Shown here piece by piece: positions 7,892 through 17,391 of a DNA stretch of 64,000 bases (position 1 is its first letter; each line of letters starts with the position of its first letter). The notes beneath the pieces are model-generated. The model searched no databases, was not told the origin of the DNA, and saw only the letters and a program-made list of their open reading frames with translations. The DNA comes from Shinella fusca. GTDB taxonomy: Bacteria > Pseudomonadota > Alphaproteobacteria > Rhizobiales > Rhizobiaceae. Made by a program: the position numbers and the translations under genes. The DNA is taken from contig NZ_JACHIK010000004.1 in the NCBI RefSeq assembly GCF_014203155.1, forward strand, positions 1-64,000. The letters run 5' to 3'.

Positions 7892-10392
7892 GCGACGGGT
7901 TCGATCTTGACTGCGCATTTCTTGAAATCCGTCTGTTTCGAGATGGGATCTGTGGCGTCGAGCGTGACCTTGTTGATGAGCTGGCTGGCATCGAACCACG
8001 GCACGAAGATCACGCCGGGCGGCATGCGGTTGCGCCCGCGCGTCTCGACCCGCGAACGGATCTCGCCGCGCCGCGAGACGATGCGGATTTCCGAGCCCTG
8101 GTTGAGGCCGCGCTTGCGCGCGTCGTCCGCATTCATGAAGCAGCGCGCGCCGGGAAAGGCCTTGAAGAGCTCGGGAACGCGCATGGTCATGGAGCCGGAA
8201 TGCCAGTGCTCCAGCACGCGGCCGGTGACGAGCCAGGTGTCGTATTCCTCGTCGGGCGATTCGGCCGGCGGCTCGTAGGGCACGGCGATGATCGCCGCCT
8301 TGCCGTCCTTGTTGCCGTAGAACTTCACGCCCTCGCCGGGCTTCACATAGGGGTCGTACCCTTCGCGGTAGCGCCACAGCGTCTCCTTGCCGTCGACAAC
8401 CGGCCAGCGCAGGCCGCGCACCTCGTGATAGGTGTCGTAGGGCGCAAGGTCATGGCCGTGGCCGCGGCCGAAGCTGGCATACTCCTCGAAGAGACCCTTC
8501 TGCAGATAGAAGCCGAAATGCTGCGCCTCGTTGTTGTCGTAGCCCGGATCGACCTCGCTTAACGGGAACTTGGCGACGTCGCTCTCGGCATAGAGGACCT
8601 GGTAGAGCGTCTTGCCCTTGTATTGCGGGTTTGCGGCGAGGATATCCGCCGGCCAGACCTCGTCCGTCGTGAAGCGCTTGGAGAACTCGACGAGCTGCCA
8701 GAGGTCGGAGCGCGCCTCGCCGGGCGCCTGCACGAGCTGGTGCCAGACGTGTGTGCGCCGCTCGGCATTGCCGTAGGCGCCTTCCTTCTCCACCCACATG
8801 GCGGCCGGCAGCACGAGATCGGCGCTCATCGCGGTGATCGTCGGATAGGCATCCGAGACGACGATGAAATTATCGGGGTTCCGGTAGCCCCGGTAGGTCT
8901 CGTTGGAGGTGTTCGGCCCGGCCTGGACGTTGTTGTTGACCTGCACCCAGTAGAAATTGAGCTTGCCGTCCTTCAGCATGCGGTCCTGCTCGACGGCGTG
9001 ATAGCCGGGTTTTTCCGGGATGATGCCGTGCGGGATGCGCCAGATCTCCTCGGCGTGCTTGCGGTGCTCGGGGTTCGTCACCGTCATGTCGGCGGGCAGG
9101 CGATGGGCGAAGGTGCCGACCTCGCGCGCCGTGCCGCAGGCCGAAGGCTGGCCGGTCAGCGAGAAGGGGCTGTTGCCCGGTTCGGAGATCTTCCCCGTGA
9201 GCAGGTGCAGGTTATAGACCATCTGGTTCGCCCAGACGCCGCGCACATGCTGGTTGAAGCCCATGGTCCACAGCGACATGACCTTTCGGTCGGGGTCGGC
9301 ATAGAGCTCGGCGAGCTGCTTGAGGAAGCCGGCCTCCACGCCCGTCATCTCGACGGCCTTCTCCAGCGTGTATTCCGAGACGAAGGCCTTGAAGGCCTCG
9401 AAATCGATCGCCTCGGTCTTGCCGGGATCGGCCGAATTGGCCGCATTCACCTCGCGCGGATTGTCCGGGCGCAGGCCGTAGCCGATATCCGTGACGCCGC
9501 GCACGAACTTCGTGTGGTTCTTCACGAAATCCTCGTTCACCCGGCCGGACTGGATGATGTGGTTGGCGATATAGTTGAGGATGACGAGGTCCGTGCCCGG
9601 CTTGAAGACCACCGGGATATCGGCAAGGTCCATGCTACGGTGGGTGAAGGTGGAGAGCACCGCCACGCGCACATGCTCGTTTCCGAGCCGCCGGTCGGCG
9701 ATGCGCGTCCACAGGATCGGGTGCATCTCCGCCATGTTCGAGCCCCACAGCACGAAGGCGTCGGCATGCTCGAAATCGTCGTAGCAGCCCATCGGCTCGT
9801 CCATGCCGAAGGTGCGCATGAAGGCGTAGGCGGCCGAGGCCATGCAGTGGCGGGCGTTCGGATCGAGGTTGTTCGAGCGGAAGCCGGCGCGCATCAGCTT
9901 GGTCGCGGCATAGCCCTCGAAGATCGTCCACTGGCCCGAGCCGAACATGCCGAGCGCCGTCGGTCCCTTCTCCTTCAGCACCTTCTTGGCCTGCTGGGCC
10001 ATCACGTCGAAGGCCTCTTCCCAGGTGATCGGCTCGAACTCGCCGTCCTTGGCGTAGGCGCCGTTGCGCTTGCGCAGGAGCGGCGTCGTCAGCCGGTCGG
10101 CGCCGTACATGATCTTGGAGAGGAAATAGCCCTTGATGCAGTTGAGGCCGCGGTTGACCTCGGCCTGCATGTCGCCGTGGGTGGCGACGACCTTGCCCTC
10201 CTTGACGCCCACCATGACGCCGCAGCCCGTGCCGCAGAATCGGCAGGGGGCCTTGCTCCACTTGATTTCCAGCGCGCTCACCCCGCCGGGCACCGGCTGG
10301 GCGGCCGCGGGCAGGGCGATGCCGGCGGCCGCTGCCGCCACGCCCGCCGCCTGGGCCTTCAGGATGTCACGCCGCGTCAGTTCGCTGCCCAT
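7888..10392 (-). CDS. napA: NapA, catalytic molybdoprotein of periplasmic nitrate reductase
   Basis: 834 residues. It reduces nitrate to nitrite in the periplasm. A twin-arginine signal (TRRDILK, residues 6-12, then an Ala-rich hydrophobic stretch) sends the folded protein through Tat. Cysteines 50, 53, 57 and 85 (CRFCGTGC ... NCIKG) hold the 4Fe-4S cluster, and Cys183 in ARHCMASA is the molybdenum ligand. The start at ATG 10392 places the Tat motif at the usual position; a longer reading to 10419 adds nine residues. Its first 26 bases overlap napD, the usual arrangement. Length and motifs are those of an intact enzyme. Confidence 0.97.
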
Positions 10393-11358: not shown

Positions 11359-11735
11359 GACACTTCCTCGCTTAGGCAAATCGGTGAGCGGATACTAGCA
11401 TCATCGCCTTGAAAAGAAAGTAGAATAAACTTTGTTCCCGCAATCGCCATGAAAATCGCGTAACAACAGTTATGGAACTATTCCGGAAAATACATCGCTC
11501 TGCACCAAATCGGAACGGAACGCCCGTGCAGTTCAAGATTTCCTAAATTCTAAATTTGACGCGTGCCGGGAATTACATGCGAAGGCGCGCCCGCCTTCCC
11601 CGGCACCCCGGCATCGTTTCTCCACGATGCCCCTGCGACGCTATTGCACTTTCACCGTGCGGTCCGTTGCGCTAAAAGTGGCATCGCAAATACCTCTTAT
11701 CGCATGCGGCCCGTCCATGGCCCGGGGGACATTCC
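11359..11735. other. Intergenic region between divergent napE and nsrR
   Basis: 377 bp that must hold the promoters of napEFDABC (leftward) and of nsrR-ccoNOQP (rightward). The part from 11400 to 11570 is AT-rich for this genome. The NsrR-type box at 11676-11698 is described separately. I found no TTGAT-N4-ATCAA (FNR/FixK) or TTGAC-N4-GTCAA (NNR/DNR) palindrome. No open reading frame here looks genuine. Confidence 0.8.
11676..11698 (+). promoter_or_regulatory. NsrR-type operator (NO-responsive)
   Basis: Imperfect 23-bp palindrome with outer arms AAGTGG and CCTCTT. Aligned with the 11-1-11 NsrR consensus known from enterobacteria (AAGnTGnATTT-n-AAATnCAnCTT) it matches 15 of the 19 specified positions. 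It is 37 bp upstream of the nsrR GTG start, so NsrR would repress its own operon including ccoNOQP and the haemoglobin. Confidence 0.65.
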
Positions 11736-12182
11736 GTGCGGATGACGCTTCACACCGATTATGCCTTGCGCATGCTGATCTACATCGCCTCGCGCCGGGA
11801 CGGCCTGTGCACCGTCAACGACGTCGCGGAGGCCTATCGCCTGTCGCGCAACCACCTCCTCAAGGTGGCCCAGACGCTGCGCGGCCTCGGCATCATCGAG
11901 ACGACGCGCGGGCGCAGCGGCGGCATCCGCCTCGCCATGGCGCCGGGCGAGATCAGGGTCGGTGCGCTGGTGCGGGCAACGGAAGAGGAGTTCTCGCTCA
12001 CCGAATGCATGCAGGCACACGGCCGGTCCTGTGCGATCTCCCCGGCCTGCCGGCTCAAGGGAATGCTGCACGAGGCACTCGCCGCCTTCCTGGCGGTACT
12101 CGACAAATATACACTCGAAGATATCGTACGCAACAGGGCCACGCTCGGCCCTCTGCTCGGGCTCGACGCCGCGGCGGCGTAA
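11736..12182 (+). CDS. nsrR: NsrR, Rrf2-family nitric oxide-sensing repressor
   Basis: 148 residues. Starts at GTG 11736 (MRMTLHTDYALRML), which matches the family N-terminus and has GGGGGA upstream. Winged HTH in residues 1-70 (VNDVAEAYRLSRNHLLKVAQTL, then GRSGG wing). Three cysteines, C91, C99 and C105, in the pattern C-x7-C-x5-C followed by RLK mark the Fe-S cluster that reacts with NO; this spacing is that of Gram-positive-type NsrR. The tail DKYTLEDIV is also typical. It begins the operon, with an NsrR box just upstream, so it likely derepresses the cbb3/haemoglobin genes when NO is present. Confidence 0.9.
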   Translation: MRMTLHTDYALRMLIYIASRRDGLCTVNDVAEAYRLSRNHLLKVAQTLRGLGIIETTRGRSGGIRLAMAPGEIRVGALVRATEEEFSLTECMQAHGRSCAISPACRLKGMLHEALAAFLAVLDKYTLEDIVRNRATLGPLLGLDAAAA

Positions 12183-12198
12183 GACGGAAGGAAAACGG

Positions 12199-13857
12199 AT
12201 GGTCACGGGATTGACGGTTTCGGAGCGCCATATGGCTCTCTTCGTGCTCGGCGCGCTGGCGCTCGCCGGGCTTGCCATGGCGGTCGGCGGGCGCGGCGAT
12301 CCGCTCGCCGTGCACGGCTATATCGTTCTCGCCTTCAGCCTCGGCCTCGGCTTCGTCGTGCTCTCGGCGCTCTTTGCGCCGGAGCCGCCGGAAAGCCGGC
12401 TTTCGGAATATTACGACGACCCGACGCGGGTGGGCATCATCCTGTCGCTCGCCTGGGCGGTCGCCGGCATGTTCGTCGGCGTATGGGTCGCCGCGCTTCT
12501 CGCCTGGCCGGAGCTGACCTTCGTGGATTCGGCCTGGGCCAGCTTCGGCCGGCTGCGGCCCGTGCACACCAGCGGCGTCATCTTCGGCTTCGGCGGCAAC
12601 GCGCTGATCGCCACGTCCTTCCACGTCCTCCAGCGCACCTCGCGCGCCCGCCTGCCCGACCAGTTCAGCCCGTGGTTCGTGCTGATCGGCTACAACCTCT
12701 TCTGTCTGATCGCCGCGAGCGGCTATCTCATCGGCGTCACCCAATCGAAGGAATATGCCGAGCCGGAATGGTATGCCGACATCTGGCTGGTCATCGTCTG
12801 GGTCGCCTATTTCGTGCTCTACATCCGCACGCTCCAGCGCCGCAAGGAGCCGCATATCTACGTAGCCAACTGGTACTACATGGCCTTCATCCTGGTCGTG
12901 GCGGTGCTGCACATCGTCAACAACCTCGCCGTGCCCGTCACCTTCGGCCATGCCAAGAGCTATTCGCTGTTCTCCGGCGTGCAGGATGCGATGACGCAAT
13001 GGTGGTACGGCCACAACGCCGTCGCCTTCTTCCTCACCTCCGGCTTCCTCGGCATGATGTACTACTACCTGCCCAAGCGCGCGGGACGGCCGATCTTCTC
13101 CTACCGGCTCTCCATCATCTCCTTCTGGGGCATCACCTTCATGTATATGTGGGCGGGCGCGCACCACCTGCATTACACGGCGCTGCCGCAATGGGTGCAG
13201 ACGCTCGGCATGACCTTCTCCCTCGTGCTGCTGGTTCCCTCCTGGGCCTCTGCCGGCAACGCGCTCGCCACGCTCAACGGCGCCTGGCACAAGGTGCGCG
13301 ACGACGCGACGCTGCGCTTCATGATGGTCGCGGCCGTGTTCTACGGGCTTTCCACCTTCGAGGGCTCGTTCATGGCGATCCGCGCCGTCAACTCGCTCTC
13401 GCACTACACCGACTGGACGGTCGGCCATGTCCATGCCGGCGCGCTCGGCTGGGTGGCGATGATCACCTTCGGCTCGCTCTACGCCCTCGTGCCATGGATG
13501 TGGAAGACGGAGCGCATGTATTCGCCGAGGCTGATCGAATTGCATTTCTGGCTCGCGCTCGCCGGCACCGTCGTCTACGTCTTCGCCATGTGGAATTCGG
13601 GCATCATCCAGGGCCTGATGTGGCGCACCTATAACGACAGCGGCACACTCGCCTACTCCTTCATCGACAGCCTGGTTGCCATGCACCCCTATTATATCGC
13701 CCGCGCCTTCGGGGGCCTCCTGTTCCTGACCGGCGCCGTCGTGTGCTGCGTCAACGTCGCCATGACGATTCGCATGGCGCGCCATGCCCGCAAGGCCGAA
13801 GCCGGCGGCGACGTGCCGCTCTACGGCCAGGCCGGCGCGGCACAGGCAGGAGAATGA
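12199..13857 (+). CDS. ccoN: CcoN, catalytic subunit I of cbb3-type cytochrome c oxidase
   Basis: 552 residues, about twelve membrane helices. Reduces O2 to water at a haem-copper centre and pumps protons; cbb3 enzymes work at very low oxygen. Conserved histidines are in place: H123 (PVHTSG) for the low-spin haem, H272 (WWYGHN) and the pair H322-H323 (GAHHLHY) for CuB, H410 and H412 (GHVHAG) for the haems. ATG 12199 has AAGGA upstream. Sixteen bases separate it from nsrR. The maturation genes ccoGHIS are not in the window. Confidence 0.96.
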   Translation: MVTGLTVSERHMALFVLGALALAGLAMAVGGRGDPLAVHGYIVLAFSLGLGFVVLSALFAPEPPESRLSEYYDDPTRVGIILSLAWAVAGMFVGVWVAALLAWPELTFVDSAWASFGRLRPVHTSGVIFGFGGNALIATSFHVLQRTSRARLPDQFSPWFVLIGYNLFCLIAASGYLIGVTQSKEYAEPEWYADIWLVIVWVAYFVLYIRTLQRRKEPHIYVANWYYMAFILVVAVLHIVNNLAVPVTFGHAKSYSLFSGVQDAMTQWWYGHNAVAFFLTSGFLGMMYYYLPKRAGRPIFSYRLSIISFWGITFMYMWAGAHHLHYTALPQWVQTLGMTFSLVLLVPSWASAGNALATLNGAWHKVRDDATLRFMMVAAVFYGLSTFEGSFMAIRAVNSLSHYTDWTVGHVHAGALGWVAMITFGSLYALVPWMWKTERMYSPRLIELHFWLALAGTVVYVFAMWNSGIIQGLMWRTYNDSGTLAYSFIDSLVAMHPYYIARAFGGLLFLTGAVVCCVNVAMTIRMARHARKAEAGGDVPLYGQAGAAQAGE

Positions 13858-13859
13858 TC

Positions 13860-14594
13860 ATGAAGGAATTCTTCCACCGCAAGATCGAGCGCAACGCCAT
13901 CGGCTTCGTGCTCGCCATCGTCGGCGTCGCCTCCATCGGCGGCCTCGTCGAGATCGCCCCGCTCTTCACCATCCACGAGACGGTGGAGGAGGCACCGGAC
14001 ATGCGGCTCTATACGCCGCTGGAGCTGGCCGGGCGCAACATCTACATCCGCGAGGGCTGTTACGCCTGCCATTCGCAGATGATCCGCACGCTGCGCGACG
14101 AGGTGGAGCGCTACGGCCCCTATTCGCTGGCCGTGGAATCGAAATACGACCACCCGATGCTCTGGGGCTCCAAGCGCACCGGGCCGGACCTTGCCCGCCT
14201 CGGCGGCAAGTATTCCGACGCCTGGCACGTCGCGCATCTCATGAACCCGCGCGACGTGGTGCCGGAATCGGTGATGCCGCGCTACGGCTGGCTGAAACGC
14301 AACGCGCTCAGGATCGACGACCTCGGCGAACACCTCGCCGCCCAGCGCGACGTCGGCGTGCCCTATACCGACGCGATGATCGAGAACGCCGTGGCCGATG
14401 CCCGCGGACAGGCGAACCCCGACGGCCCGGAAGCCGGCGGCGTTGCCGAGCGCTACGGCGAAGCGACGAACGTGCGCGCCTTCGACGGCAACCCGGGCAC
14501 CCTGACGGAGATGGACGCACTCGTCGCCTATCTCCAGATCGTCGGCCAGCTCACGCAGGCCGCCCATCAGGAAACGGCGGCGAAGGAGGAATGA
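13860..14594 (+). CDS. ccoO: CcoO, monohaem subunit II of cbb3 oxidase
   Basis: 244 residues: one N-terminal membrane helix (residues 12-36, IGFVLAIVGVASIGGLVEIAPLF), then a periplasmic domain with the single haem c motif CYACH (67-71) in the invariant REGCYACHSQMIR context. Methionine ligand candidates follow in VMPRYGWL. Two in-frame ATGs exist (13854 and 13860); I choose 13860 because AGGAG then has a 7-base spacing, while 13854 would sit on it. The ccoN stop overlaps this start region. Confidence 0.95.
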   Translation: MKEFFHRKIERNAIGFVLAIVGVASIGGLVEIAPLFTIHETVEEAPDMRLYTPLELAGRNIYIREGCYACHSQMIRTLRDEVERYGPYSLAVESKYDHPMLWGSKRTGPDLARLGGKYSDAWHVAHLMNPRDVVPESVMPRYGWLKRNALRIDDLGEHLAAQRDVGVPYTDAMIENAVADARGQANPDGPEAGGVAERYGEATNVRAFDGNPGTLTEMDALVAYLQIVGQLTQAAHQETAAKEE

Positions 14595-14596
14595 CC

Positions 14597-14767
14597 ATGG
14601 GCATCGACCACGAAAGCGTCGTCGCCGTCTCCAAGAGCTGGGGGCTGTTCTACCTCATCGCCATGGCGGCCGGGGTCCTCGTCTACACGCTCTGGCCGGG
14701 CAACCGGAAGCGCTTCACCCGCGCCAAGACGAGCATTCTCGACAAAAACGACCGGCCGGGGGAATAG
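14597..14767 (+). CDS. ccoQ: CcoQ, small cbb3 oxidase subunit
   Basis: 56 residues with one membrane segment (GLFYLIAMAAGVLVYTLWP) and a basic tail (GNRKRFTRAK) holding the pattern usual after the CcoQ helix. CcoQ stabilises the oxidase complex. As with ccoO, tandem ATGs occur (14591 and 14597); AGGAGG favours 14597. It lies between ccoO and ccoP as expected. Confidence 0.9.
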   Translation: MGIDHESVVAVSKSWGLFYLIAMAAGVLVYTLWPGNRKRFTRAKTSILDKNDRPGE

Positions 14768-14769
14768 GC

Positions 14770-15648
14770 ATGGCAACGGAACGACACGATCCCGCCACCG
14801 GGCGGCTGACCACCGGGCACGAATGGAACGGCATCGAGGAACTGGAGACGCCCATTCCGCGCGTCGTCTTCTTCTTCCTCGCCGTCACCACGCTCTTCGC
14901 CATCGTCTACTGGATCCTCATGCCGGCCTGGCCGGTCGGCGTCACCTATACCAAGGGCCTGCTCGGCATCGACCAGCGCGCCGTGGTGACGAAGCAGGTG
15001 GAGGACGCAGCCACCGCGCGCGCCGCCTGGACCGGCCGCGTCACTGAAGCGAGCCTTGCCGACATCGCCGCCGACCCCGAGCTGATGCACCACGTCCGCG
15101 AGACGGGCCGCACGCTCTTCATCGACAATTGCGCCGCCTGCCACGGCGTGCGCGGCACCGGCGGGCCCGGCTTCCCGAACCTTGCCGCCAAGGCGTGGCT
15201 GTGGGGCGGCGATCCGGACACGATCGAGGAGACGATCCGCATCGGCATCAACGGCACGAGCCCGGACACCCGCGTCTCCGAGATGATGGCCTTCGGCCGC
15301 GGCGGCATCCTGGAAACCGACCAGGTGCGCGCGGTGGCCGCCTATGTGCGCTCGCTCTCCAACCTGCCGATGGGCGAGGCCGACAAGACGCGCATTCCGG
15401 CGGGCAAGGAGATCTTCGCCGAGAACTGCGTGGCCTGCCACGGCGAGGATGCCCGCGGCAGCACGGATGCCGGCGCGCCGAACCTCACCGACGCGGCCTG
15501 GATCTACGGCAGCGACGCGCAGACCGTGTTCACCACGATCTATTCCGGCCGGCAGGGCCATATGCCGAGCTGGGAGGGCCGCCTTTCGCCCGTCGACATC
15601 AAGATGCTGGCGCTCTATGTCGGCACGCTCGGGGCGGAAAACCCATGA
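14770..15648 (+). CDS. ccoP: CcoP, dihaem subunit III of cbb3 oxidase
   Basis: 292 residues. Membrane helix at about 30-54 (RVVFFFLAVTTLFAIVYWIL), then two cytochrome c domains with CAACH (121-125) and CVACH (220-224). It accepts electrons from soluble cytochrome c or the bc1 complex and passes them to CcoO. It follows ccoQ after two bases. Its stop overlaps the ATG of a small membrane protein gene, so the operon continues beyond the oxidase. Confidence 0.96.
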   Translation: MATERHDPATGRLTTGHEWNGIEELETPIPRVVFFFLAVTTLFAIVYWILMPAWPVGVTYTKGLLGIDQRAVVTKQVEDAATARAAWTGRVTEASLADIAADPELMHHVRETGRTLFIDNCAACHGVRGTGGPGFPNLAAKAWLWGGDPDTIEETIRIGINGTSPDTRVSEMMAFGRGGILETDQVRAVAAYVRSLSNLPMGEADKTRIPAGKEIFAENCVACHGEDARGSTDAGAPNLTDAAWIYGSDAQTVFTTIYSGRQGHMPSWEGRLSPVDIKMLALYVGTLGAENP

Positions 15649-15848
15649 GTGCCGGCGCAAGCCCCGGGGCACCGCGCATCAACTGGCGATGGACGTCGCT
15701 TGCCATCGTCGTCGCCGGCACGCTGCTTTTCATCGGCGCCAATGCGCATCTCGTCCATGTCGCGCTGCGCTCGCAGCCCGACTGCGTGCAGCACCTGAAG
15801 AGCGAAGGCGCGGGCGGAACGTTCCGCGCCGCGCAATCGTCCTGCTGA
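15645..15848 (+). CDS. Small single-helix membrane protein, unknown, translationally coupled to ccoP
   Basis: 67 residues starting at ATG 15645, which overlaps the ccoP stop (ATGA). One membrane helix (SLAIVVAGTLLFIGANAHLVHVAL) and then a short tail with two cysteines (SQPDCVQHL and the C-terminal SSC). The N-terminus is Ala/Pro/Gly-rich and probably cytoplasmic. I do not recognise a named family. The overlap and the following AGGAGG of the next gene show it is really translated within the operon. A role in oxidase assembly or haem/Cu handling is possible from context only. Confidence 0.75.
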   Translation: MSAGASPGAPRINWRWTSLAIVVAGTLLFIGANAHLVHVALRSQPDCVQHLKSEGAGGTFRAAQSSC

Positions 15849-15863
15849 AAGGAGGAACATCCC

Positions 15864-16649
15864 ATGGCCACGAGCGAAAAGATCGCTGACGCCCCGCTGC
15901 CGCTCGCCGAACAGCGTCGCCGCCACCTGCCGGCCGGCGCGGCCTTCGGCTGGCTTGCCGCCGGCTGGCGCGACCTCTGGCGCACCCCGCTGCCGAGCCT
16001 CGTCTACGGCTTTGCCGTCTTCCTCCTGTCGGCGGCGGTCGTCTGGTGCCTCTTCCGCATGGAGCTGGACTATATCCTCTTCCCGGCGCTTGCCGGCTTC
16101 ATGGTGGTCGGCCCACTGGTGGCCATCGGCCTCTACCGCAAGAGCCAGGACCTCGAGGCGGGCATCCAGCCGAGCCTTGCACGCATGGTCTTCGTCAAGG
16201 CGCAGTCGGGCGCGCAAGTCTGGTTTACCGGCGCGATCCTGTGCCTCCTGATGCTGGTCTGGATGCGCGCGGCCGTCATCATCTACGCGCTCTTCGTCGG
16301 GCTTCGCCCCTTCCCCGGCCTCGACAACATCGTCGCCATGCTCACCTCGACGCCGGAAGGGCTCGGCATGCTCGTCGTCGGCACCGCCGTCGGCGGGCTC
16401 TTCGCCGCCTTCTCCTTCGCCATCAGCACCTTCGCCATCCCCATGCTGCTGGCCGAGAAGACCGACGCCTTCACCGCCATGGGCACCAGCATCTCGCTCG
16501 TCTTCCGCAACCTGCCGGTCATGCTCGCCTGGGGCGCCATCGTGCTTGTCCTTACCCTCATCGGCCTTGCGACGGGGCTTCTCGGCCTCATCGTGATCTT
16601 CCCGCTGCTCGGCCACGGCACCTGGCACAGCTACCGGGCGATCCGATGA
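15864..16649 (+). CDS. DUF2189-type multi-pass membrane protein
   Basis: 261 residues with about six hydrophobic segments (e.g. SLVYGFAVFLLSAAVVW, FPALAGFMVVGPLVAIGLY, MLLVVGT-like and VLVLTLIGLATGLLGLIVIFPLLGHGTWHSY). The GPLVAIGLY-KSQ and the final PLLGHGTWHSYRA match DUF2189, a family of integral membrane proteins often beside cbb3 oxidase genes; the assignment is by motif memory, not a search. RBS AGGAGG precedes ATG 15864. Function unknown. Its stop overlaps the haemoglobin start. Confidence 0.8.
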   Translation: MATSEKIADAPLPLAEQRRRHLPAGAAFGWLAAGWRDLWRTPLPSLVYGFAVFLLSAAVVWCLFRMELDYILFPALAGFMVVGPLVAIGLYRKSQDLEAGIQPSLARMVFVKAQSGAQVWFTGAILCLLMLVWMRAAVIIYALFVGLRPFPGLDNIVAMLTSTPEGLGMLVVGTAVGGLFAAFSFAISTFAIPMLLAEKTDAFTAMGTSISLVFRNLPVMLAWGAIVLVLTLIGLATGLLGLIVIFPLLGHGTWHSYRAIR

Positions 16650-17113
16650 GAGGAAGGCCCGCTCCCGCCCGCACCGTGGTCATCGACGGCAAGCTCCTGC
16701 CGGAGGTGCTCGACGAGGCGATGGTCCACGCCGTCGTGCACGGCTTCTACGACGAGATCCGCAAGGACGACCTGCTCGGCCCGATCTTCAACGGCGTGAT
16801 CGCGCCAGAGGACTGGCCGGTGCACCTCGCCAAGATGTGCGACTTCTGGTCCGCCACGCTGCTGCGCACCGACCGCTACGACGGCCGGCCCCTGCCGCCG
16901 CATCTCGCCATCCCCGAACTCGGGCAGGAGCATTTCCACCGCTGGCTCTCGCTCTTCCGCGCCACGGTCGAACGGCTCTGCCCGCCGGAGGTCGCCGACC
17001 TCTTCCTCGACCGGGCGCTGCGCATCGCCCATTCCTTCCGCCTCGCCATCGCCTTCCACCGCGGCACGGATACCACCGGCATCGTGCCGATCTCGCGGGA
17101 GGCGTTGTCATGA
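16646..17113 (+). CDS. Group III truncated haemoglobin
   Basis: 155 residues starting at ATG 16646 within the stop of the preceding gene. The globin pattern is clear: FYDEIRKDDLLGPIFN near 35-50, W-P-V-H-L-A-K-M-C-D-F-W-S (distal side), YDGRPLPPHLA then ELGQEHFHRWLSLF, in which the His of EHFHRW region is the proximal haem ligand. Group III globins in related bacteria are linked to NO or nitrite stress and to respiratory oxidases. Position in an nsrR operon supports an NO-scavenging or NO-protecting role for the oxidase, which is inference. Confidence 0.9.
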   Translation: MRGRPAPARTVVIDGKLLPEVLDEAMVHAVVHGFYDEIRKDDLLGPIFNGVIAPEDWPVHLAKMCDFWSATLLRTDRYDGRPLPPHLAIPELGQEHFHRWLSLFRATVERLCPPEVADLFLDRALRIAHSFRLAIAFHRGTDTTGIVPISREALS

Positions 17114-17391
17114 CGAAAGGACCGCTCACGCTCGCCCGCGATGCGGAGGGCGAATTCGTATTGCCGGCGGACCTGCTGGCCGAGCGCTTCGGCTGGCCGA
17201 CGCAGACATTGCGCGACTACATGCGCCGCGGCCTCGTCGCCTCGCGGGTCGAGCGCGGCGAGGGAGAGGACGAGGGCCGCTGGCGGCTTTCCGTGCGCTG
17301 CGGCAACCGCCGCTGGCGGGCGGTCGTCGAGGCCGACGGCACCGTCGGCGCCCAGCAGGTCGACGTCCTTTCCGCCCAGGCGCCTCGTTAA
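17110..17391 (+). CDS. Small soluble protein, DUF6522-like, end of the nsrR-cco operon
   Basis: 93 residues from ATG 17110, overlapping the haemoglobin stop. No membrane segment. The reading FVLPADLLAERFGWPTQTLR resembles a small helix-turn-helix-like element, followed by the G-E-G-E-D-x-G-R-W-R-L stretch and a beta-rich tail; this is like proteins filed under DUF6522 near denitrification genes, as I recall. Function unknown. It ends 3 bp before the convergent GntR gene. Confidence 0.75.
   Translation: MTKGPLTLARDAEGEFVLPADLLAERFGWPTQTLRDYMRRGLVASRVERGEGEDEGRWRLSVRCGNRRWRAVVEADGTVGAQQVDVLSAQAPR

Follow-up and report, generated by a model that had tools for sequence, protein, structure and literature searches.

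A putative NsrR-type operon pairing a second cbb3 oxidase with a group III truncated haemoglobin in Shinella fusca

We analysed a 64,000-nucleotide stretch of the Shinella fusca genome (bases 1-64000 of contig 4 in an assembly of 4.85 Mb; hereafter the window), in which nine genes on the plus strand, at positions 11736-17391, form an operon that joins a cbb3 oxidase to a haemoglobin. In order, they encode an nsrR-like Rrf2 repressor of 148 amino acids (aa) with a GTG start (11736-12182), the cbb3 catalytic subunit CcoN (12199-13857), CcoO (13860-14594), CcoQ (14597-14767), CcoP (14770-15648), a 67-aa protein with one hydrophobic stretch (15645-15848), a DUF2189 membrane protein of 261 aa (15864-16649), a group III truncated haemoglobin of 155 aa (16646-17113) and a DUF6522 protein of 93 aa (17110-17391). 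The intergenic distances are 16, 2, 2, 2, -4, 15, -4 and -4 base pairs (bp), and the tight packing described in the original prediction, which had been made from the nucleotide sequence, is real: all nine frames are present and the largest gap is 16 bp. Upstream, on the same strand, lie an element with a GCGAC core, TGCGACGCTATTGCACTTT (11634-11652), and a 23-bp NsrR-type operator, AAGTGGCATCGCAAATACCTCTT (11676-11698), with its last base 37 bp upstream of the nsrR start codon. A strict-consensus sigma-70 scan found no promoter for the operon, and a scan of its end found no terminator-like site.

The family calls made originally were confirmed. CcoN, CcoO and CcoP exceed their TIGRFAM cut-offs (TIGR00780, 641.6 bits; TIGR00781, 305.9 bits; TIGR00782, 311.2 bits) and CcoQ is present (FixQ, PF05545, 53 bits), with Pfam assigning the oxidase genes to COX1, FixO, FixQ and FixP_N plus cytochrome c. 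The regulator belongs to Rrf2 (PF02082, 120.8 bits), and the two larger accessory proteins match DUF2189 (PF09955, 119.4 bits) and DUF6522 (PF20132, 73.8 bits).

The box that had been proposed before the operon is a palindrome in which 14 of the 23 positions equal their own reverse complement. With up to three mismatches, a pattern derived from it has one occurrence in the window, against an expectation of 0.33 from shuffled sequence; with up to one mismatch, it occurred at one place in the assembly. Because a backward control pattern likewise matched at one place, a match in a single genome proves little, and conservation in relatives was the real test. A like palindrome precedes nsrR in all ten congeneric relatives that have the operon (L101-L110) and in Ciceribacter (L040), being weaker in L106, and its typical form is AAGTGGTAT-N5-ATACCTTTT. 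Across the genus, the one-mismatch pattern was found in 14 of 21 genomes, at one place each, compared with 1 of 21 for the backward control. Ten of these matches, the window's included, lie at the operon, two precede an nsrR-haemoglobin pair (genomes G211 and G212) and two lie elsewhere (G215 and G200) and seem incidental; the operon of G199, whose box is weaker, escaped this search. No second target per genome was seen at one-mismatch stringency in the 21 genomes, although weaker ones may exist. Conservation of the whole set, which the original prediction had proposed as a check, was found for the operon and the box and was incomplete elsewhere: of the 10 congeneric relatives that share the operon, 6 were found to have the DUF6522 gene, and in one (L102) no haemoglobin was found in the 16 kb examined. 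In G211 and G212 (loci L288 and L295), both the operator and the GCGAC element stand before the nsrR-haemoglobin pair, without a DUF2189 gene of this type; in these loci, which are without the oxidase cassette, the oxidase may have been lost or may not yet have been inserted.

Beyond the genus, we examined 121 loci, comprising the best 80 of at least 566 confirmed candidates and 41 picked by hand, so that the frequencies given here are not population frequencies. In 109 of them ccoN lies upstream of a DUF2189 gene on the same strand, and the other 12 were dropped; the 67-aa gene was found in 108 of the 109 clusters. Judged from these loci, the gene order ccoNOQP, 67-aa gene, DUF2189 marks a widespread alphaproteobacterial cassette. 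After removal of seven duplicates, 102 distinct clusters, the window's own standing outside the count, were scanned over 3 kb upstream of ccoN with a weight matrix built from ten boxes of the L101-L110/Ciceribacter group. At a threshold of 18, chosen after the scores had been seen, 24 of the 102 clusters scored positive, namely 11 of the training group and 13 others (L111, L117, L128, L131, L163, L164, L167, L195, L205, L212, L216, L232 and L239). The maximum in a control of 109 coding stretches of 3 kb was 11.3, a lenient comparison given the higher A+T content of intergenic DNA. Canonical NsrR boxes of the GATGYAT type in L127 (15.2) and L225 (13.0) were added by hand, and L209 (17.7) was left uncounted. 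An NsrR-type regulator and box accompany this oxidase in several families.

Other clusters of the same family carry a different control site. In 22 of the 102 clusters, and in none of 109 coding controls, the 450 bp before ccoN contain an FNR-type site at one mismatch or fewer (nine are perfect); in 21 loci it stands in place of the box, and L212 alone has both. A perfect NnrR-type site was found in two of the 102 clusters. On a CcoN tree of 100 rows, which was computed by a quick method with support from the Shimodaira-Hasegawa-like approximate likelihood ratio test only, the box and FNR labels need eight changes, at least two of which are forced by supported branches. Because of these label changes, the same oxidase seems to have moved between oxygen-type control and control of a type associated with nitric oxide (NO) more than once. 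In the window, no FNR site of the TTGATNNNNATCAA type with up to one mismatch was found in the first 20 kb, as had been predicted for FNR/FixK sites, and the nearest FNR-like sequence in the operon's promoter region has three mismatches. An NnrR-type site (TTGCG-N4-CGCAA, up to one mismatch) was also sought and rejected: the promoter has none, and the matches at 10064 and 12986 in the first 20 kb are both intragenic.

From its key residues, the box and the context, we call the regulator NsrR-type, and not an NsrR equivalog. It has Asp at position 8, within a motif that reads TDYG in E. coli NsrR and TNYA in RirA (Asn at position 8), and the abstract of PMC5411485 describes Asp8 as a cluster ligand in the Streptomyces coelicolor protein, ScNsrR. 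Its helix SRNHLLK is to be compared with SRNHMVK in E. coli NsrR and SELFLFK in RirA, and its best match in the PDB is ScNsrR (5n07); these three features favour NsrR over RirA. The family, Asp8, the helix and the operator thus agree with the name nsrR given originally, whereas the NCBIfam cut-off for the NsrR equivalog was missed (123.7 versus 182 bits). The regulator could instead be a RirA-like sensor of iron or iron-sulphur status, with the operon answering iron or oxidative damage and not NO, given that its RirA score of 138.8 bits (cut-off 193) is slightly higher than its NsrR score and that its three conserved cysteines, C-x7-C-x5-C, are spaced as in the genome's own RirA (L141). However, both scores lie below their cut-offs while the genome's RirA reaches 285.9 bits for RirA and 97.4 for NsrR, position 8 and the helix differ from RirA as described, the partner gene is a haemoglobin and the best structural match is an NsrR, and we consider a RirA-like sensor improbable.

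In a tree of 70 Rrf2 proteins, the bootstrap of which had not fully settled, 16 of the 18 cco-linked regulators fall into one clade (support 100/99), and position 8 is Asp in 15 of these 16, the window's included (L110 has Glu). The other two (L128 and L131) group in a separate clade (100/100) with Rrf2 proteins from Alloyangia, Carideicomes and G195 loci; on this tree, a second Rrf2 lineage joined cco clusters separately. Six proteins encoded beside haemoglobin and not beside ccoN (L041, L042, L043, L140, L165 and L166) make up a third clade (96/99), near which a paralogue from the S. fusca genome itself (contig 10, 79342-79752) branches. For alphaproteobacteria, a passage of a 2005 paper places NsrR only in Rhodobacter capsulatus E1F1 (PMC1274295), and a Paracoccus denitrificans NsrR is named in part of a 2026 paper (PMC12774639).

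The haemoglobin scored below the Pfam Bac_globin cut-off (17.4 versus 21 bits). Its assignment to group III, made in the original prediction, is upheld by a match to the Campylobacter jejuni group III haemoglobin Ctb (2ig3, E-value 4e-21), with which it shares the haem-pocket residues Tyr B10, His E7, His F8 and Trp G8. The orthologue in NZ_CP084753 is annotated 'group III truncated hemoglobin'. Of the 102 clusters, 20 have a haemoglobin gene, 10 of them directly downstream of the cassette and 10 at most 2.5 kb upstream; its position varies by lineage, and the box precedes the haemoglobin or the operon. An NsrR-type box accompanies 18 of the 20 haemoglobin clusters (that of L225 added by hand) compared with 8 of the 82 clusters without haemoglobin (Fisher test, 5e-12, kinship ignored). 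Outside the training group the numbers are 8 of 10 versus 7 of 81 (3e-6), and among the five supported independent pairs the haemoglobin goes with the box in a mean of 3.7 and against it in about 0, which falls short of significance. These comparisons support a recurrent link between the haemoglobin and box-bearing clusters. In one such cluster, from Pseudooceanicola, a nitronate monooxygenase gene (L232:4081-5109) stands between the haemoglobin and ccoN, behind the NsrR-type box.

The explanation that we find best, at a probability of roughly 0.65, is an NsrR-type, autoregulated cbb3-haemoglobin operon that is derepressed by NO, with probable added redox activation. An NsrR-type iron-sulphur repressor would bind the palindrome upstream of its own gene and keep the second cbb3 oxidase, the haemoglobin and three accessory proteins off. 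NO would destroy or nitrosylate the repressor's cluster and so derepress the operon, a fresh cbb3 isoform would be made, and the haemoglobin would remove or trap NO nearby, with the result that respiration could continue at low oxygen in the presence of NO. The upstream GCGAC element would probably add redox activation of the ActR/RegA type, and maturation factors, at least CcoS, would come in trans from genes near those of the canonical cbb3 oxidase.

Several findings weigh against this explanation besides the regulator's NCBIfam scores and cysteine spacing. The Rrf2 tree places E. coli NsrR and RirA on long branches and does not resolve them. The nsrR gene is frameshifted at different points in L103 and L108 (genomes G201 and G218), where the box is kept, although these may be sequencing errors; if they are not, the operon may be constitutive there. 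A kinship-aware test of the haemoglobin-box association, with five supported independent pairs, was not significant (median p 0.125). Eight clusters have the box without the haemoglobin, L188 has the haemoglobin without the box (in L234, the other haemoglobin cluster with no box counted, the contig ends before the promoter), and neither a haemoglobin nor a DUF6522 gene was found in the 16 kb examined of L102. Finally, in 53 of the 102 clusters no site of any type sought was seen.

The GCGAC element bears on how much of the control would fall to NO. GCGAC stands upstream of the box at a distance of 39-44 bp (41 bp in most, including the window) in 16 of the 23 upstream sequences compared, namely those of the window, of 13 relatives whose nsrR is intact and belongs to the main clade, of L103 with its frameshifted nsrR and of L163, which has no adjacent nsrR; L105 (near-identical to L104; element present) and L234 (promoter outside the sequence) are omitted from the count. 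The chance of this was about 1.3% per sequence by mononucleotide shuffles, for a position window set after seeing the data, and a pattern drawn from the element has its only zero-mismatch place in the genome here. Several of the putative RegR boxes given in part of PMC4064962 for Bradyrhizobium japonicum begin TGCGTC, TGCGGC or CGCGGC, and others do not. The genome encodes an ActS/PrrB-type kinase (593 bits; cut-off 350). The element is therefore a putative site for an ActR/RegA-type activator that would add redox control. Because it is conserved and such an activator is presumed, we do not accept NO as the sole signal, and the original proposal that the oxidase is induced by NO rather than by low oxygen alone was too strong. 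ActR/RegA-type redox or oxygen control might even be the main switch, with the Rrf2 protein trimming expression or sensing through an oxygen-labile cluster. The frequency of the element, the RegR boxes, the kinase and the frameshifted nsrR of two congeners would fit such a switch, but the box occurs without GCGAC at that place in L128 and L131, which have the other Rrf2 protein, and in L164, L205, L216, L232 and L239; we regard it as a possible but unlikely arrangement.

The oxidase itself is one of several in the genome, which has eight COX1-family genes; the sequences read as a canonical cbb3 oxidase (contig 1), NorB (contig 12) and quinol or aa3/caa3-type oxidases. Enzymes of the high-affinity cbb3 type are generally regarded as serving at low oxygen under the control of FNR/FixK. 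In the stretch read as the promoter of the canonical ccoN, there is an FNR-like site with one mismatch, TTGATCCATGTCAA. The one FixS (CcoS) gene found is also on contig 1, some 8 kb away from this ccoN, so the window operon lacks at least that maturation factor. Three His motifs of the haem and CuB sites of CcoN are common to the window protein and the canonical paralogue, and a fourth motif, HTSGVIF, is present in the window protein and absent from the paralogue in this exact form. The isoform might itself remove NO by reducing NO or nitrite to N2O, oxygen respiration being secondary: cbb3 oxidase of Pseudomonas stutzeri is described in a passage of PMC8780969 as reducing both to N2O, and the association with the haemoglobin is compatible with such a role. 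In contrast, the shared His motifs are those of the canonical enzyme, and the genome has genes reading as norCB, hence a dedicated NO reductase, with a one-mismatch NnrR-like site preceding norC. On these two features, we think an NO-reducing oxidase rather unlikely.

The two membrane proteins encoded directly after CcoP are more probably there for the oxidase than for defence against NO, because both genes follow ccoP in all 68 clusters in which no NO-linked gene or site is seen. For the 67-aa protein, a probable oxidase subunit or assembly factor, no family scored above its cut-off (FixH, with an E-value of 0.03, stayed below its own); an alignment of 111 sequences, the window's included, shares ANaHLvyVA..SQPdCV, with the second Cys at the C-terminus. 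The DUF2189 model (predicted local distance difference test, pLDDT, 86.6) is all-helical and had no significant PDB match (best E-value 0.65), CysZ (template modelling scores of 0.47 and 0.55) being only a lead. The DUF6522 model (pLDDT 87.8) is small, with two helices and four strands, and likewise had no significant PDB match (best E-value 0.10); its gene recurs near haemoglobin or oxidase loci and is divergent from the haemoglobin gene in L205, L216 and L232. A bolder reading, which we consider less likely than not, is that ccoNOQP with the 67-aa and DUF2189 genes forms a distinct alphaproteobacterial cbb3 branch fit for work under NO, in which the extra membrane proteins would be true subunits or maturation factors, and which may have been put repeatedly and independently under NO sensors (two Rrf2 lineages, canonical NsrR boxes and NnrR sites), with the group III haemoglobin as a recurrent partner.

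Several known systems share parts of this arrangement. FNR/FixK-controlled ccoNOQP (fixNOQP) operons have the same four oxidase subunits and, as described above, control by an FNR-type site is found among the related clusters themselves, whereas the window has an NsrR-type box, an autogenous Rrf2 gene, a haemoglobin and DUF6522. Ctb is the closest solved structure to the window haemoglobin and has its pocket positions; it is induced by NO and linked to microaerobic respiration. Its regulator is a different one, NssR of the CRP/FNR family, and we know of no oxidase operon in that system. The NsrR regulons of E. coli, Neisseria and Streptomyces resemble the operon in having an Rrf2 repressor, a 23-bp palindrome and a haemoglobin-type target; for ScNsrR, part of PMC9338935 describes hmp genes as the targets and a site of 23 bp. 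Unlike these regulons, the window's target is a respiratory oxidase, no genome had more than one match to the pattern used, and the half-sites read GGTAT-N5-ATACC in place of the gATGyAT-N5-ATrCATc given in PMC1274295. A precedent for pairing under another regulator comes from a transcriptome table of the Bradyrhizobium diazoefficiens nnrR mutant, an excerpt of PMC6710368 that lists the group III haemoglobin bll6222 and ccoN/ccoO (fixNO); there, in contrast to the window, the regulator is a CRP/FNR-type activator and the genes are at separate loci. The orphan cbb3 isoforms ccoN3Q3 and ccoN4Q4 of Pseudomonas aeruginosa are induced by nitrite or cyanide and add resistance to them (passages of PMC5697931), but they comprise N and Q subunits only and those passages give no NsrR or haemoglobin partner. 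In a literature search at the level of titles, abstracts and passages, with most subscription journals outside it, we found no published description of such an operon; the oxidase and the repressor type are already known, and the combination is, from the sequences compared here, new and recurrent. Should a branch of cbb3 oxidases indeed be controlled by an NO-responsive repressor and keep a haemoglobin as its companion, NO would be, for some bacteria, a cue to change oxidase. The operon would offer a compact, testable system for respiration that survives NO, and it gives a context for DUF2189 and DUF6522, families of unknown function, and for the unnamed 67-aa family.

Divergent to the operon are the gene for NapE and two genes whose products, a ferredoxin-type protein and a molybdopterin oxidoreductase, read as NapF and NapA, respectively. 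The original prediction saw nap as an adjoining source of NO; this linkage is incidental, nap adjoining the operon in 1 of 10 congeneric relatives (L106) and napA occurring in 2 of the 109 loci, within the stretches examined. The nearest named records with orthologues of the operon are plasmids of Shinella and Ciceribacter, a location that would suit accidental hitch-hiking of neighbouring genes without functional meaning. Such an accident is very improbable in view of the four-base overlaps between genes and of a haemoglobin that lies downstream or upstream by lineage, with the box before it or before the operon.

Two further observations concern genes near the regulator and the cassette in relatives. 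Next to nsrR, L167:4338-4883 and L234:388-861 encode a DUF4149-like membrane protein (21.1 and 22.9 bits versus a Pfam cut-off of 24.6), which an open reading frame in L111 resembles by eye, and this protein is another possible member of the NO-linked gene set. In L167, the gene after DUF2189 encodes a P-type ATPase that has a heavy-metal domain and may be CcoI.

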